This document shows positions 16,926-59,650 of a DNA stretch of 64,000 bases, in pieces. Both the position numbers and the translations under genes were made by a program. This DNA comes from an uncultured Bacteroidota bacterium (GTDB taxonomy: Bacteria > Bacteroidota > Bacteroidia > Chitinophagales > Chitinophagaceae): the NCBI GenBank assembly GCA_903835005.1, contig CAILLK010000153.1, positions 1 to 64,000 on the forward strand, given 5' to 3'. Below the pieces are notes generated by a model that saw only the letters and a list, made by a program, of their open reading frames with translations, had not been told where the DNA came from and did no database searches. The first letter of the stretch is position 1. Every line of letters begins with the position of its first letter.

Positions 16926-17118
16926 AAGTGCGAAAATAAAGGTTATTTACAAAGATAGGGTTTGGGAGGGAAAAAGGAAATGGGGAAATGTTTTCGTGTT
17001 TTCAATTTCCTAAAAGAATTATGGATAAGAATGTTGAAGTTTAAAAATGTTTTATTGAATATGTAAATTCTGGTAATAATTCTAATGTTGATTTGGTTTT
17101 TTGGGTGGAAAAAATGTG

Positions 17119-17126
17119 TATCTTTA
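17119..17126 (+). promoter_or_regulatory. -7 element TATCTTTA
   Basis: Matches the Bacteroidota TAnnTTTG -7 consensus except for the last base. It lies 16 bases before ATG 17143, supporting that start over the upstream TTG at 17101. A TTTG at 17092-17095 could be the -33 element. Confidence 0.5.
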
Positions 17127-17142
17127 TTATAACTTTCGCATT

Positions 17143-18027
17143 ATGAAATGGATAATAGTAATAACTCTCTTACTTCTATTTAATATAAGTTTATCAGCGC
17201 TTGGGCAAAAAATCAGGTTTAGTGATAGTACCAATGTATGGCATGGTTATAATTGGGACGACGCTGATGTTCCTTATTATTCATACCCCTGGACTTATAA
17301 TTATGTTGGCAGTATTATCATTAATGACACTTTTTATAGACTATTAGGGTCGAGTAGTTTCTTAATACGCGAAGATACCAATTCAAACAAAGTTTATCTG
17401 AGTGAAAATGTACTCTATGATTATAATTTGCAATTAGGTGATACTTTTTATTATTCAGGTGCAAAACCTCATATTGTTTCACAAATAGATTCTGTATAGA
17501 TAAACAGTGTCTGGCATAAAATCTGGCACTTTGTTCCAATTAATGATTCCAGTGTAGCAGGAGGGATGCCCGCTGATTATGATGTAATTGAAGGTATAGG
17601 TTGTCTCAATAATCCATTTTATCCGACACAACCTGCTTTTTTTGAAGCACATACTACCCTTACTTGTTTTAATAATAAAGGTACGACGCCACCTCTGAGC
17701 CAAAATGTAGGTGATTATTTTGATAATTATATCAGTTGTAATCTGACCTTTGGGGCAGGAATAAAAAACATTTCGGCACAACAAATAAATCCTGAATTAA
17801 TTCCAAACCCTATAAATGAATTAAGCAAGATTATATTCCCATATACCATCTCCAAGGGTTCTTTTGAAATAGTTAATTTTACTGGAGAAATCATTGCTGT
17901 TTTTACGCTTAATAATATTGGTGAAATATCTGTAGGTTATAAAATAACAAAACCAGGTATCTATTTTTATCAGGTAATTGATTTTTCTAATGGTAATCTA
18001 TTTTCAGGAAAATTCTTAAAGCTATAA
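17143..18027 (+). pseudogene. T9SS type A secreted protein interrupted by one in-frame TAG
   Basis: From ATG 17143 the frame runs 118 codons (signal peptide MKWIIVITLLLLFNISLSALG, then a beta-rich secreted domain) and meets TAG at 17497-17499. The same frame continues without further stops to TAA at 18025-18027. It passes through INSVWHKIWHFVP and GGMPADYDVIEGIG to a typical T9SS type A sorting domain (NPINELSKI ... FEIVNFTGE ... GIYFYQV ... GKFLKL). The two halves are clearly one gene of 295 codons, probably a recent nonsense mutation. Without the C-terminal domain the truncated product would not be sorted by T9SS. The function of the N-terminal domain is unknown. Confidence 0.85.
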
Positions 18028-18076: not shown

Positions 18077-18283
18077 CTACTCGTTTAAAGAACCTTCCTG
18101 CACGTTCTCTAAAAACCGATCCCTCTCTATCATCCTTGCTCCTAAACTTTCCAGGTGGGCAGTATGCACCTGACAATCTATTAATACAATTCCATTTTCT
18201 TTAAGCAATTTCACCCATTTTATAAAGGCAAACTTACTGGCATTGCTTACTTTGCTGAACATGCTTTCGCCAAAGAAAATCAA
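18077..18283 (-). pseudogene. Duplicated 3' fragment of aat
   Basis: This frame encodes IFFGESMFSKVSNASKFAF, WVKLLKENG and CQVHTAHLESLGARMIERDRF. It is nearly identical to the C-terminal third of the intact aat product at 18883-19548, but differs at its last residues (ENVQEGSLNE against EIVKEGSQRQIIF). It lacks the first two thirds of the enzyme. Its 5' edge lies exactly at the stop of the DUF2442 gene, with a 4-base overlap. It is a leftover copy, not a working gene. The two copies form direct repeats that flank the DUF4160/DUF2442 pair. Confidence 0.92.
18092..18282 (-). repeat. Direct repeat, distal copy of the aat 3' end
   Basis: About 190 bp matching 18905-19096. A central block beginning TCTAAAAACCGATCC and running through CAGTATGCACCTG is identical in both copies. 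The rest shows scattered, mostly third-position differences. Homology ends abruptly at 18282, after GCCAAAGAAAATC. Confidence 0.9.
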
Positions 18284-18555
18284 TTAATTCCGATGCTCAT
18301 CAGATACAACATATCCGGACTGAAATCAAGAGGGGCAGGTATAATTGTTCCATCCAGTTCTTTCATTTTTGCAAGCCCTTCCCATTTTATAGTTGGGTAA
18401 TCGTCAAGTGTAGCAGCAATAAAGACTTCCGGCTTTTTTAATACCGGGAAATCCAATAATAGTGGTTCGAAATTAATTAAACGACGTTCTTTATTATCAA
18501 AGATCACAGTAATAGTGTATGGCTGAATGGAAATAATTGAATTAATAAAGTGCAT
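18280..18555 (-). CDS. DUF2442 domain protein (TA-like partner)
   Basis: A 91-residue protein with DUF2442 features: ITVIFDNKERRLINFEPLL, then PVLKKPEVF, TIKWEGLAKMKELDG and a C-terminal LDFSPDMLYLMS. The family has a helix-turn-helix-like character and commonly lies next to DUF4160, in what is regarded as a putative toxin-antitoxin pair. Here the DUF4160 gene ends 9 bases upstream, so the two are co-transcribed. The stop codon overlaps the start of the duplicated aat fragment, marking the edge of the inserted segment. Confidence 0.85.
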   Translation of the reverse strand: MHFINSIISIQPYTITVIFDNKERRLINFEPLLLDFPVLKKPEVFIAATLDDYPTIKWEGLAKMKELDGTIIPAPLDFSPDMLYLMSIGIN

Positions 18556-18564
18556 AACCGGCTT

Positions 18565-18828
18565 TTATTTTAAAGGTTCTATTCTTGAAATAATACCACC
18601 CTCAGTTAATGATTGCTGGTAGTTTATCAATAGCTCATCTCTGTGTAATTCTGTCCATGCCTGTACCAGCCTTAATGCCTTTTTGGGTAATGATCCTTCT
18701 ATTAATTCCCCATCAATTATGTTTATTTTTCCTTTAAACTCAGCATACTCCACATGAAAATGAGGTGGTAAATGATCACGGAAAAACATCCTTATTATTA
18801 TCCCATAAAAGCGGCAAATTTCAGGCAT
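18565..18828 (-). CDS. DUF4160 domain protein (TA-like partner)
   Basis: The start is taken at ATG 18828 (MPEICRFYGIIIRMFF), the usual N-terminus of this family; an upstream ATG at 18879 would add 17 unlikely hydrophobic residues. The 87-residue product carries the family core MFFRDHLPPHFHVEYAEFKG, then ALRLVQAWTELHRDELL. DUF4160 proteins pair with DUF2442 proteins in many Bacteroidota and cyanobacteria and are suspected TA components; which partner is toxic is not known to me. The pair lies between the aat stop (18883) and a second copy of the aat 3' end. Confidence 0.88.
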   Translation of the reverse strand: MPEICRFYGIIIRMFFRDHLPPHFHVEYAEFKGKINIIDGELIEGSLPKKALRLVQAWTELHRDELLINYQQSLTEGGIISRIEPLK

Positions 18829-18882
18829 AAGGTTTTTAAGGCAAAAATACATAGAAGTTATAACAATCAGTAAAATCAAGCA

Positions 18883-19548
18883 TTAAAAAATGATCTGCCT
18901 CTGACTCCCTTCTTTCACTATTTCTAAAAACCGATCCCTCTCTATCATCCTTGCTCCTAAACTTTCCAGGTGGGCAGTATGCACCTGGCAGTCTATCAAC
19001 ACACCCCCGTTTTCTTTAAGCAGTTCCACCCATTTTATAAAGGCAAACTTACTTGCATTACTCACTTTGCTGAACATGCTTTCGCCAAAGAAAATCTTAC
19101 CCAGCAAAACGCCATACAGGCCACCAACAAGGCTTCCGGATTGCCATGCTTCGGCGCTGAAGGCATGGCCTAATTCGTTCAGTTGGGTATAGGCATCAAT
19201 TATTTCGGAGGTGATCCAGGTGCCGGGCTGGCCTTCGCGGTATATCTGGCTGCAACTGGTAATAACTTCCTGAAAGTTGGTATTTACCCTGAATTCAAAT
19301 TCATTTTTGCGGATCACCTGTTGCATACTTTTGCTCACTTTCAGTTCTTCGGGGAAGAGTACAAAGCGGGGATTGGGCGACCACCATAGGGGAGGGTCTT
19401 CTTCATTGAACCAGGGAAAGATACCACTGCTATATGCCAGCAGCAGCCGTTCAGCACTAAGGTCGCCACCAGCAGCAAGCAGGCCATCGGGCATTGCTTC
19501 CTGCACCGGGGGGAACCATAATTCATCATCGAGCAGATATACAGGCAT
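18883..19548 (-). CDS. aat: Leucyl/phenylalanyl-tRNA--protein transferase
   Basis: A 221-residue cytoplasmic enzyme of the N-degron pathway. It transfers Leu or Phe from aminoacyl-tRNA to proteins with N-terminal Arg or Lys, marking them for ClpS/ClpAP. Family signatures are visible: FPPVQEAMPDGLLAAGGDLS near the N-terminus, GIFPWFNEEDPPLWWSPNPR, HAFSAEAWQ..LVGGLYGV..G..FFGESMFS, and CQVHTAHLESLGAR. Length is normal. The 3' end (from about 19096) is duplicated downstream at 18092-18282, and the last residues (EIVKEGSQRQIIF) differ between copies, so the enzyme's C-terminus may have been replaced when the DUF4160/DUF2442 segment arrived. Confidence 0.95.
   Translation of the reverse strand: MPVYLLDDELWFPPVQEAMPDGLLAAGGDLSAERLLLAYSSGIFPWFNEEDPPLWWSPNPRFVLFPEELKVSKSMQQVIRKNEFEFRVNTNFQEVITSCSQIYREGQPGTWITSEIIDAYTQLNELGHAFSAEAWQSGSLVGGLYGVLLGKIFFGESMFSKVSNASKFAFIKWVELLKENGGVLIDCQVHTAHLESLGARMIERDRFLEIVKEGSQRQIIF
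18905..19096 (-). repeat. Direct repeat, copy inside intact aat
   Basis: Partner of 18092-18282, in the same orientation, offset by about 815 bp. The homology stops after GCCAAAGAAAATC at 19096, whereupon the intact aat gene continues with unrelated sequence. The interval between copies is filled by the DUF4160 and DUF2442 genes. Confidence 0.9.
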
Positions 19549-20892: not shown

Positions 20893-21312
20893 ATGGGTTT
20901 GGTTTATGCTGATGTTGAGTTAATAAATGGATACGACCTTGAGTCTGCCCGCCGTTATATTATCGGAGAAGAAGAAATAAAACGAATGCATGTAAATATA
21001 TTAGTAGATACCGGCTCCATTATGCTCGCTATTAATGAGAATATTCAGGAACAATTGCAATTACCTATCGTAGAAAAGAGAATAATGCAATTAGCTAATG
21101 GCAAAATCGAAGAATACGATATTGTGTCCCAGGTTGAATTAAGGTTTAAAAACAGGCGTACAATGTGCAATGCAGTGGTTTTGCCAGGCGATACAGAACC
21201 ATTATTAGGAGCCATACCATTAGAAGATATGGATGTTTTAATCCATCCCACCAGGAATGAATTAATTGTACATCCAGACCATCCGTATTTCGCGCAAATG
21301 AAACTGAAGTAA
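20893..21312 (+). CDS. Retropepsin-like clan AA aspartic protease
   Basis: A 139-residue soluble protein beginning MGLVYADVELIN. The active-site triad Asp-Thr-Gly is at residues 39-41 (NILVDTGSIML). It is followed by ANGKIEEYDI and LLGAIPLEDMDVLIHP, where the LLG/ALEDMD part is typical of the small bacterial/archaeal clan AA proteases. It should work as a homodimer, like retroviral proteases; substrates are unknown. The start was chosen from the promoter position and from the paralogue at 46972-47388, which matches along its full length. No signal peptide is present, so it is cytoplasmic. Confidence 0.85.
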   Translation: MGLVYADVELINGYDLESARRYIIGEEEIKRMHVNILVDTGSIMLAINENIQEQLQLPIVEKRIMQLANGKIEEYDIVSQVELRFKNRRTMCNAVVLPGDTEPLLGAIPLEDMDVLIHPTRNELIVHPDHPYFAQMKLK

Positions 21313-23409: not shown

Positions 23410-23429
23410 TTGGAAAATAAAATATTTAG

Positions 23430-23437
23430 TATCTTTG
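23430..23437 (+). promoter_or_regulatory. Promoter -7 element TATCTTTG of vapBC
   Basis: Exact TAnnTTTG match, 17 bases before ATG 23455, with a TTG at 23410-23412 spaced 17 bases upstream as candidate -33. It supports ATG 23455 as the antitoxin start over the earlier TTG at 23410. Confidence 0.6.
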
Positions 23438-23454
23438 TAAAAGAACCATTATTT

Positions 23455-23673
23455 ATGGAAGCGATCAGACATATTATGACTAATCCCACAAACCATCTGG
23501 AAATTACACTTCCAGATAACTTAGTGAATGAAAAGATAGAAGTTATAATATTATCTTTAAATGAACCGAAGAAAAATGTTGCAACTTATAAAAGCTTAAT
23601 GGGGTCTATGCCAGAAAATGAAGCGCTCAGAATGCTAGAATTTATTGAATCTTCTAGAAACGAATGGGAGTGA
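23455..23673 (+). CDS. VapB-type antitoxin
   Basis: A 72-residue protein (MEAIRHIMTNPTNHLEITLPDNLVNEKIEVIIL) with an N-terminal beta-strand/helix that suits an AbrB- or Phd-like DNA-binding antitoxin, and an acidic C-terminal helix (MLEFIESSRNEWE) that would bind the toxin. It overlaps the PIN toxin gene by 10 bases. It probably represses its own promoter at 23430. Confidence 0.82.
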   Translation: MEAIRHIMTNPTNHLEITLPDNLVNEKIEVIILSLNEPKKNVATYKSLMGSMPENEALRMLEFIESSRNEWE

Positions 23674-24056
23674 AATATCTTTTCGACACCAACTCAGTAA
23701 TTTATTTTCTTGGCAAAGTTGTCTTGAGTAATAGTGCTTTTGTGAAATTAAACACAATTTGTGAATATGGCCAGCATCTTTCCATTATTTCGAAATTAGA
23801 ATTACTCGGATACCGTTTTGAAAGCCTGATAGGTGAGGAAACTACGAAAAATTTTGTAACCAGGTCCCTGATTTATCAAATTACTTCCGAGATTGAAATC
23901 GAAACTATTAACCTTAGAAAATCAAATAAAATAAAACTTCCAGATGCAATAATTGCTGCTACCGCAATTGTAAATGATTATACCCTTATCTCTGCAAATA
24001 CCAAGGATTTCAAACCAATAACACAATTGAAATTACTAAATCCGTTTGATTTGTAG
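23664..24056 (+). CDS. VapC-type PIN-domain toxin
   Basis: A 130-residue PIN-domain ribonuclease. The acidic metal-binding residues are Asp8 (YLFDTNSVIYFL), Glu46 (ISKLELLGY), Asp94 (KLPDAIIAATAI) and Asp115 (SANTKDF). It should cleave RNA, often tRNA or rRNA, when not held by its antitoxin. The reading frame is intact and ends in TAG, so unlike the pair at 9 kb this module looks functional. Confidence 0.92.
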   Translation: MGVKYLFDTNSVIYFLGKVVLSNSAFVKLNTICEYGQHLSIISKLELLGYRFESLIGEETTKNFVTRSLIYQITSEIEIETINLRKSNKIKLPDAIIAATAIVNDYTLISANTKDFKPITQLKLLNPFDL

Positions 24057-46971: not shown

Positions 46972-47388
46972 TTACACTTTCATTTGGGCATAATAAGGAT
47001 GGTCGGGATTCACAATCAATTCTTCCCTAAGCGGATGAATCAAAACATCCATATCTTCCAAAGGAATGCAACCCAAGAGAGGCTCTGCCGAACCTGGAAG
47101 AATCATTGCGCTGCAAATGGTTCGGCGGTTTTTAAATCTGAGTTCTACGCAGGATGCAACATCATATTCCACAATATGGCCATTTGCAAGTTGAGCTTTC
47201 CTTTTTTCAACAATAGGGAATTGAAGCTGCTCCTGGATACTTTCATTGATACACAATAGGTCAGTACCCGTATCAACCCTTATATTTACTGGCATTCTTT
47301 TTATTTCCTCCTCACCAATATAATGCCTCCTGGCCAAAGTAATATCTTCGGCATTAATCAACTCTATATCTGCAAATATGGCACCCAT
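46972..47388 (-). CDS. Retropepsin-like clan AA aspartic protease, second paralogue
   Basis: A 138-residue soluble protein beginning MGAIFADIELIN. It matches the 20893 gene over its full length: active-site DTG at 39-41 (NIRVDTGTDLLCINESIQEQL), ANGHIVEYDVASCVELRFKN, LLGCIPLEDMDVLIHP, and VNPDHPYYAQMK at the end. It should be a dimeric protease; substrate unknown. It is encoded 104 bases upstream of the membrane TPR-HTH gene on the same strand. Confidence 0.87.
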   Translation of the reverse strand: MGAIFADIELINAEDITLARRHYIGEEEIKRMPVNIRVDTGTDLLCINESIQEQLQFPIVEKRKAQLANGHIVEYDVASCVELRFKNRRTICSAMILPGSAEPLLGCIPLEDMDVLIHPLREELIVNPDHPYYAQMKV

Positions 47389-57074: not shown

Positions 57075-57844
57075 GGTTTGATTTTGAGGTGTAAAAGTAG
57101 GGAGTTTATTGCAAAAGGGTAGGGTATAGCATAGTTAAATTGGTAAAGGATTAAAAAGTGTGTTGTTACGGCTTTATTTTAGCTATTTGGTTTCAGTAGC
57201 AGAGCCTGCCCTGAGGAGGAATCGATAGGGCGCACTTCAAGTTAGGCTATCAATTGTTCTTGCCTGCTATTCCCATAATAGCTGAAACCAGCCAGCCAAG
57301 ATGAATTAAGCGATAGTGCAAATTTCCCTTGCCGTGTAGGCTTGTGAATGTGCGAATGGGGATTAAGCGGGATGTTAACCCGCTTCCATCAGGAAATTTG
57401 CAAACTCCCCCGCTTTTTATCAAAGGGTACCAATTGAATGAGACGAATGCCGGATGTAACTCGAGGTGTGGGAATCTCGTGCTGTGAACCAAATAGGAAG
57501 CAATTCGAATATCTGGTCACAATAATTGATAAAATAATACGCAACAAAAAATTGGCTAAAGAACCTGTTGTTTTGCCGAATTACATCCACTTAGTACCAA
57601 TCTTTGAATTACTTTGGAAGCTGCCAAAGGTTTCATTCATATCCGGCGTCTAAAGTTAGAGTATACCCTTAATTGTGCAGGAATAATACCGCATGGTATC
57701 CCATCTTTTCTTCTTCATTATTATTATCTGTATTTAATTTTAGGTACATAAAATAAATTTATTTTATAATTAAACTACCTTTAGACCTTTTATTCTTATA
57801 ATAGTACATTTTTATAAATAACTAATAAATTTAAAAACTATTGT
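57075..57844. other. Gene-poor stretch with degenerate sequence
   Basis: 770 bases with no ORF I can support. 57250-57492 (minus) and 57438-57653 (plus) are short open frames without recognisable similarity or clear starts. A small hairpin AAGCGGG/CCCGCTT lies near 57365-57386. Positions 57486-57558 form an imperfect direct repeat with 59579-59650. The stretch is locally more GC-rich than its surroundings and may be the decayed remnant of an element or gene. The last 100 bases before the next gene are AT-rich. Confidence 0.5.
57486..57558 (+). repeat. Imperfect direct repeat, left copy
   Basis: About 73 bp similar (roughly 80% by eye) to 59579-59650. Shared parts include GAAGCAATTC and a 23-base stretch TAAAATAATACGCAACAAAA and onward. 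The copies flank the arylsulfotransferase-like gene. Confidence 0.7.
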
Positions 57845-59578: not shown

Positions 59579-59650
59579 GTAACAAACAAGAAGCAATTCA
59601 AATACCAGTAAACAATAACTAATAAAATAATACGCAACAAAAATTAGCTA
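59579..59650 (+). repeat. Imperfect direct repeat, right copy
   Basis: Partner of 57486-57558, about 2.1 kb away and in the same orientation. It lies 70 bases after the stop of the arylsulfotransferase-like gene. Confidence 0.7.

Follow-up and report, generated by a model that had tools for sequence, protein, structure and literature searches.

A candidate toxin-antitoxin pair in the window (the whole stretch of 64,000 nucleotides analysed here) was found between an intact aat gene and a second copy of the 3' end of that gene. On balance we favor, with some reserve, the reading that the cassette arrived together with a gene end, by which the gene was rebuilt and its old end stranded, the join being homologous on the gene side and illegitimate on the far side. 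How toxin-antitoxin pairs move without a nearby plasmid, phage or transposon is, to our knowledge, an old open question. The recurrence of the layout at other genes suggests that such pairs can enter chromosomes even though they carry no transposon or integrase genes.

On the minus strand, the order was intact aat, DUF4160, a DUF2442-like gene and the second aat 3' end. The features are as follows.

18883 to 19548, minus strand: aat, leucyl/phenylalanyl-tRNA-protein transferase, intact, 221 aa (PF03588, E 2.1e-72)
18908 to 19096, minus strand: copy A, the 3' third of aat in place; the last 25 nt of the gene (18883 to 18907) follow
18829 to 18882, minus strand: leader from the aat stop to the DUF4160 ATG, 54 nt, of which at most the last 24 nt are common to related cassettes
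18565 to 18828, minus strand: DUF4160, DhiT-like toxin candidate, 87 aa from the ATG; the longest ORF extends to 18879 (PF13711, E 3.6e-22)
18280 to 18555, minus strand: DUF2442-like antitoxin candidate, 91 aa (PF10387, E 0.015, sub-threshold; C-terminus comparison)
18280 to 18282, minus strand: right junction, where the antitoxin stop TGA consists of T plus GA from the aat copy
18093 to 18281, minus strand: copy B, displaced aat 3' end, 90.5% identical to copy A; open frame 18077 to 18283 from a TTG

The two aat ends (18093 to 18281 and 18908 to 19096) formed an ungapped direct repeat of 189 nt in the same orientation, 815 bp apart, with 18 differences (90.5% identity). Its blastn E value of 2.8e-69 excluded a chance origin, and the layout given in the initial annotation was thus real. 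Three further statements made there also held. The distal copy, said to begin at the DUF2442 stop, started 2 nt inside the TGA of the antitoxin gene. The C-terminal residues of copies A and B were different. No integrase or recombinase gene lay between the copies, where the two ORFs of the pair were the only ones of at least 50 aa and filled the space. Copy B still matched PF03588 (E 1.3e-18). Beyond the repeat, a faint similarity (AGATCAT) could be followed by eye up to about the stop codon.

An artefact of a fragmented draft assembly (the genome is in 163 contigs) would be one way to obtain such a layout, but its probability is negligible. The copies differed by 10%, the junctions lay inside contiguous sequence, and the same layout was found in eight other genomes (G010, G020, G025, G054, G071, G079, G105 and G136), of which G054 is in about ten contigs.

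Other features of the window were recorded. Adjoining copy B were two open pieces (17101 to 17499 and 17566 to 18027), by eye one broken gene, the second of which carried a T9SS sorting domain (TIGR04183, E 2.6e-5). A small ORF and a PIN-domain toxin (PF01850) stood directly 3' of a dehydrogenase gene at 23410 to 24056; this is likely another pair at a gene end, and no duplicated end of at least 40 nt was found there. Besides the aat repeat, only one direct-repeat family of at least 40 nt was found in the window, a 61-nt repeat (57490 to 57550 and 59583 to 59643, 84%) flanking a secreted-protein-like gene (function by eye). An inverted repeat of 277 nt (21030 to 21306 and 46975 to 47251, 71%) had one arm within an aspartyl-protease-like gene.

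The DUF4160 protein matched PF13711 with 78.8 bits against a cut-off of 23, and the curated DhiT equivalog model NF048015 with 80.4 bits (E 1.1e-22), below its cut-off of 100. The partner gene, downstream as in DhiTA, matched PF10387 (DUF2442) weakly, with 16 bits against a cut-off of 23.9. The earlier DUF4160/DUF2442 label was therefore firm for the first protein and weaker than claimed for the second. In the available part of its description, DhiTA of Dickeya dadantii is a DUF4160/DUF2442 toxin-antitoxin system in which the toxin gene precedes the antitoxin gene, and it was tested in Dickeya and E. coli (PMC8198452). The window pair is likewise DUF4160/DUF2442-like with the toxin gene first; unlike DhiTA, its toxin falls below the curated DhiT cut-off and its antitoxin match is sub-threshold. 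We regard the two proteins as candidates for a DhiT-like toxin and a DUF2442-like antitoxin.

The closest relatives of the pair, at L122, L121 and L115 (DUF4160 proteins 91, 80 and 77% identical), had no flanking direct repeats and other neighbors in view. The DNA common to these three cassettes and that of the window began 0 to 24 nt before the toxin ATG and ended 15 to 24 nt before the antitoxin stop. The window antitoxin had a tail unlike all three, departing just before the junction. An illegitimate join would readily trim the shared cassette DNA in this way, whereas for a precise mobile unit such trimming would be odd.

The aat gene was found in 52 of 60 genomes, including that of the window (G000). 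Apart from G000, two matches occurred only in G023, where a single gene was split between two contigs. The 109 other aat loci comprised 29 from relatives (L003 to L031) and 80 from a public set (L032 to L111), some genomes being in both; the top named public loci included a Chitinophagaceae bacterium and a Flavipsychrobacter sp., both metagenome genomes. A second aat end was detected in none of the 109, of which 102 had at least 1 kb downstream, so the duplication was not seen without the pair. No pair stood beside aat in these loci, and accordingly none was found there behind aat without a displaced end; the sole pair-protein match was a remote DUF4160 about 5 kb from aat in L086.

The nearest relative, G020 (L003 and L032), had an aat 89% identical to that of the window and one copy of its end. 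The same dehydrogenase gene lay downstream of aat in G020, L034 and L035, and the DNA between did not align. Because this intergenic DNA had turned over, the empty site was unreadable at aat, and copy A can be called only a putative import there.

Aligning the copies to cassette-free aat had been proposed as a way to recognize the native end. With L032, which polarized 15 of the 18 differences, this gave a single switch: L032 agreed with copy B at 8 of 9 sites in repeat positions 1 to 100, and with copy A at 6 of 6 from position 105 on (permutation P 0.0044 with 15 sites, 0.0083 with 14). Near the switch lay a tract of 65 nt (positions 109 to 173) identical between A and B. The mosaic was not reproduced with L033, the next relative, whose identities to A and B were 76.9 and 76.0% in one part and 72.6 and 69.0% in the other; the remaining relatives were too distant. 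The mosaic is consistent with a crossover within the repeat, and less so with an imported A and a drifting B.

A single switch point would also be expected if a unit of copy A, cassette and copy B was formed once per gene and passed between strains by ordinary homologous recombination or by single crossover of a circle. We consider this unlikely as the whole explanation: it accounts for spread, not origin, and no second genome with a pair at aat appeared in the 109 loci.

The layout was not confined to aat. DUF4160 was found at 50 places in the genus search (16 of 35 genomes, six places in G000) and in 42 of 149 genomes in an order-wide draw that included G000. From both searches 111 loci were tested, of which 98 extended for 700 nt or more to either side. 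Direct repeats that enclosed the DUF4160 match within 1.5 kb were present in 18 of the 111 loci and at 18 of 636 control anchors (P 3e-7), and tight ones (spacing at most 850 bp) in 14 and 10, respectively (P 6e-7); these anchors were ill-matched to the tested genomes, since they lay on 80 aat contigs of other genomes, many from other phyla. A gene-end detector scored 8 of 294 gene ends at DUF4160 loci against 2 of 749 in the control (P 1e-3). Removal by eye of L136 and L196 (DUF4160) and of both L051 hits (control), as REP or paralogous ends, left 6 of 294 against none of 749 (P 5e-4).

The clean protein-gene cases were aat (L124), acyl-CoA carboxylase (L164), transketolase N-subunit (L167, with a repeat of just 25 nt), nadB (L211), 3-hydroxyacyl-CoA dehydrogenase (L215) and aspS (L229, with a partner gene without Pfam match). 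Transketolase, nadB and aspS were named by eye. In the clean protein-gene cases, inspection by eye showed no ORFs between the copies other than those of the pair. The search for DUF4160 pairs by duplicated gene ends in other genomes, as once suggested, thus yielded five more protein genes and tRNA-Leu. In the earlier view, a toxin-antitoxin-like pair at a protein-gene end with no integrase would be unusual. Our emphasis differs, in that the layout was confined neither to this pair nor to aat: other pairs and genes showed it too.

Several repeats were set apart by eye. Those at L136 (REP-like, with a transposase-like ORF), L172, L178 and L208 were dispersed repeats. The tight repeats at L128, L156, L186, L204 (among the matches listed) and L213 were intergenic, terminator-like or at a 5' end, and stayed outside the gene-end counts. 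L125 was also set aside, being a larger block that included another toxin pair. On either side of the DUF4160 pairs of L172 (997 to 2537) and L208 (1176 to 2672) stood 240-nt repeats whose ends, CGCCCAAC...GTTGGGCG, resembled integron attC sites by eye.

A same-strand gene of at least 100 aa lay close upstream in 46 of the 111 DUF4160 loci, and a displaced protein-gene end was found in 5 of these 46, which include all but one of the six clean cases; most of the DUF4160 pairs that stood behind genes thus bore no scar. A phylum-wide replicate of 30 fresh DUF4160 loci (296 genomes), 27 of them from one genome family (f37), gave no clean protein-gene end. Spanning repeats occurred in 9 of the 30 loci, and the detector gave one hit (L415, doubtful) in 78 gene ends. 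Both the many pairs without a displaced end and the replicate without a clean protein-gene case count against generality. At L401 of the replicate (1328 to 2062), a pair lay 3' of tRNA-Met with a displaced 45-nt copy of a terminator-like hairpin.

The two tRNA-Leu cases were excluded from the codon counts given below. At L142, a second pair of G000 stood behind an intact tRNA-Leu(CAA), and downstream of the pair lay a 197-nt repeat containing the 3' half of the tRNA. A similar pair was present at the same tRNA-Leu/hscB site (hscB by eye) in G010 (L190). The two were 82% identical over 761 nt including the tRNA ends, against 65% in the neighboring stretch, as spread of a formed unit by homologous recombination would predict. 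L142 (937 to 1993) also contained nested tRNA 3' ends behind the tRNA-Leu, two in each repeat copy, so the site may have received more than one insertion.

The displaced copy of L190 started, by eye, in the anticodon loop, which is a known kind of crossover region. This start and the use of tRNA-Leu in two cases would fit an integrase-mobilized mini-island with gene ends as attachment sites and a recombinase acting in trans. Such an element is nevertheless very improbable, given that no integrase ORF lay between the copies and that ten different protein genes and several terminators were used.

Other toxin-antitoxin families were also found at displaced ends. Among HigB-type (PF05973) loci in the genus, 4 of 30 had spanning repeats, two of which were displaced gene ends, of dnaJ (G020, L259) and tyrS (G025, L262), both named by eye; the detector scored 2 of 103 gene ends in these loci. 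A census of the window's own genome (about 1.67 Mb, window included; 1150 gene ends) gave 19 detector rows. Thirteen (L287, L340, L342, L344, L349, L368, four of L369, two of L372 and one of L386) were dismissed by eye as paralogues or low-identity repeats. This left six places: aat, ispG (HigB toxin PF09907 with an HTH antitoxin), a TonB receptor gene (AbiEii with DUF6922, on the opposite strand), a GH3 gene (a lone 67-aa ORF without Pfam match), rsmG and L367 (unclear). Recognized pairs thus stood at two of the five places besides aat. Displaced ends were strongly linked with toxin-antitoxin pairs in the pair-centered tests, whereas the census was no more than suggestive of such a link. Since HigB/HTH and AbiEii/DUF6922 pairs also showed the layout, and many genes were used, there is no sign that a single landing site is recognized.

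The HigB toxin behind ispG (L291, 1222 to 1554) matched PADLOC PD-Lambda-2_A (E 7.6e-21), which PADLOC places with its phage-defense proteins.

At L386 (15282 to 18591), two paralogous di-haem peroxidase genes lay behind rsmG, separated by a 65-nt copy of the rsmG end, and there was no toxin pair. This tandem arrangement with non-toxin genes speaks for another rival, a tandem duplication of gene end and pair with later loss of the second pair. As the origin of the pair-bearing loci such a duplication is scarcely probable. At ispG of G000, where the pair lay between copies A and B, copy B and the following DNA aligned with the empty site of G020 over 611 positions in all (90.5%), joined directly after the stop as there. 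Later loss of a second pair would therefore have had to be exact, and no strain with two pairs was seen.

Relatives that carry the pair alone were found at two genes. In G028 the order was ispG, HigB, antitoxin, with a cassette 82% identical, and no displaced ispG end was found in about 640 nt downstream. The ispG of G000 was nearer to that of G020 than to that of G028 in 10 of 11 segments, so G028 was not the direct donor. At aspS, the cassette of G116 occupied the same position as that of G105 and matched it at 88.6% over 446 nt; no displaced aspS end was found in 591 nt downstream in G116, against a copy at +455 to +515 in G105. Spread of a once-formed unit does not predict a second pair-bearing genome without the displaced end, as was found at both genes. 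In the last codons of aspS, copy A resembled G116 and copy B the empty G054, a weak signal. At dnaJ, copy A was nearly that of G000 and copy B had diverged, so that A, not B, looked native.

The codon differences between copies A and B were counted in 11 protein-gene cases, and 35 were synonymous and 24 not. The neutral expectation of a synonymous share of 0.24 gave P 8e-9; a share of 0.37 to 0.39, a rough estimate for a constrained A and a drifting B, gave P 4e-4 to 1.3e-3. The aat copies alone gave 11 to 4 (P 5e-5 and 7.5e-3). Without aat and TonB the count was 17 to 16 (P 0.10 on the strict null), and without nadB and the carboxylase as well it was 11 to 16 (P 0.50). The silent bias leans on these four cases. 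Seven of ten changed codons in copy B of dnaJ were non-synonymous, as were five of seven, with gaps, in that of ispG, and these two copies look like products of neutral decay. Since the differences lean silent, many A/B pairs look like two alleles. Import of an allele is thus supported over the set, not in each case.

The borders were tight on both sides. The outer edge of homology lay -25 to +9 nt from the gene stop in 10 of 11 cases (the alignments reached +12 at most) and at about +30 at nadB. From the antitoxin stop to the start of the copy, the distance was -2 to 27 nt in the nine protein-gene cases measured, and 62 and 51 nt in the two tRNA-Leu cases.

Such borders are what the main rival would produce, namely a unit that inserts with duplication of 25 to 240 nt of its target, the copies being identical at birth and altered later by conversion or drift. 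The 189-nt direct repeats of target DNA bordering the pair at aat agree with this, as do the two ancestral flanks at ispG, which it also predicts. In the accessible text of the published cases, the pattern is the same, in that the repeats vary in length around 100 nt and addiction genes bound the mobile unit (PMC3874152, PMC1643837). Target duplication does not, on the other hand, lead one to expect the silent bias between copies, seen over the set though not in each case. For a precise unit, the aat mosaic and the antitoxin tail departing at the border are unexpected, and so are pair-bearing relatives without a displaced end, unless copies were lost. We consider target duplication rather unlikely, though a serious contender.

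The favored reading, entry with a gene end, is supported by the layout at unrelated genes with unrelated families, the silent bias, the empty site at ispG, the pair-only relatives at ispG and aspS, and the departing antitoxin tail. The original proposal of a cassette that carried its own aat end and restored the gene was thereby partly supported, while at aat itself copy A is a putative import. We infer the mechanism from the anatomy. The incoming DNA would have consisted of a compact toxin-antitoxin cassette and the aat 3' end of a close relative. Homologous recombination inside aat would take in the incoming end and leave the gene whole; the far side, just behind the antitoxin, would be joined illegitimately to resident aat sequence, and the resident end would be stranded behind the cassette. 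The probable route, like the presumed donor, is deduced from this arrangement: homology-facilitated illegitimate recombination (HFIR) after transformation or conjugation. A formed unit may later spread by plain homologous recombination, since both of its arms match the end of the target gene. The benefit for the cassette would be twofold: a position downstream of an expressed gene is safe, and a coding arm stays conserved where the turnover of intergenic DNA is too rapid for recombination.

Against this route stands the tight spacing between antitoxin and copy, as random illegitimate ends should scatter more. Also against the favored reading are the lack, among the 109 other aat loci, of a pair behind aat with no displaced end, the dependence of the silent bias on four cases, the native look of copy A at dnaJ, the decayed look of the dnaJ and ispG copies B, the failure of L033 to show the aat mosaic, and the small share of DUF4160 pairs behind genes that have a displaced end. 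HFIR is described, in the part of the source available, as occurring in competent bacteria and, at a low rate, in E. coli conjugation, with products that usually delete target DNA (PMC3240628). In the window and at ispG, unlike such products, target DNA was duplicated, not deleted.

A wider proposal is possible, though we hold it only tentatively and rather doubt it: small toxin-antitoxin pairs in general may be integrase-free mobile cassettes that carry the end of a host gene and rebuild that gene on entry. The stranded end and the new end would then serve as two coding arms, allowing homing into the same gene in relatives without common intergenic DNA, and possibly a clean exit.

Stranded gene ends are a readable scar of pair moves. 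They mark the entry point, may distinguish the old end from the new one, and lend themselves to counting in any genome. Should the pattern hold, one could test the mobility of lone pairs directly. No report of a host gene separated from a copy of its own end by a toxin-antitoxin pair was found in the literature searched, which mostly excluded subscription papers.

Several known systems resemble the arrangement in part. Prophages and islands that rebuild the end of their target gene, such as e14 in icd, supply a new 3' end and strand the old one, and they carry an integrase. The loci described here share the new and the stranded end, and unlike these elements show no integrase. In fungal mitochondrial gene-end replacement, a foreign 3' end arrives along with a homing endonuclease gene and takes the place of the native one. 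The foreign end and the rider gene are alike here, and the endonuclease ORF is absent.

HFIR has been invoked for stranded 3' ends in T6SS effector-immunity and Rhs loci (PMC5361080). To judge from the accessible part of that work, the homology anchor upstream, the illegitimate far end and the orphaned 3' ends left behind are the same. The replaced end is the toxin there, whereas here a housekeeping gene receives an equivalent end and the pair rides behind it.

Long target duplication has been described for restriction-modification genes in Helicobacter (PMC3874152, PMC1643837), and insertion with long target duplication was proposed as a form of gene mobility by Nobusato et al. 2000, as cited in the available portions of later papers (PMC3874152, PMC1643837, PMC2654758). 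As far as these portions describe them, the Helicobacter pylori insertions share with the present loci the addiction genes, the long and variable direct repeats of the target and the lack of a known transposase. They differ in that the payload here is a toxin-antitoxin pair, the duplicated stretch is often the very end of a gene, and several of the copies are allele-like. This resemblance to restriction-modification genes hints at a single route common to addiction genes.
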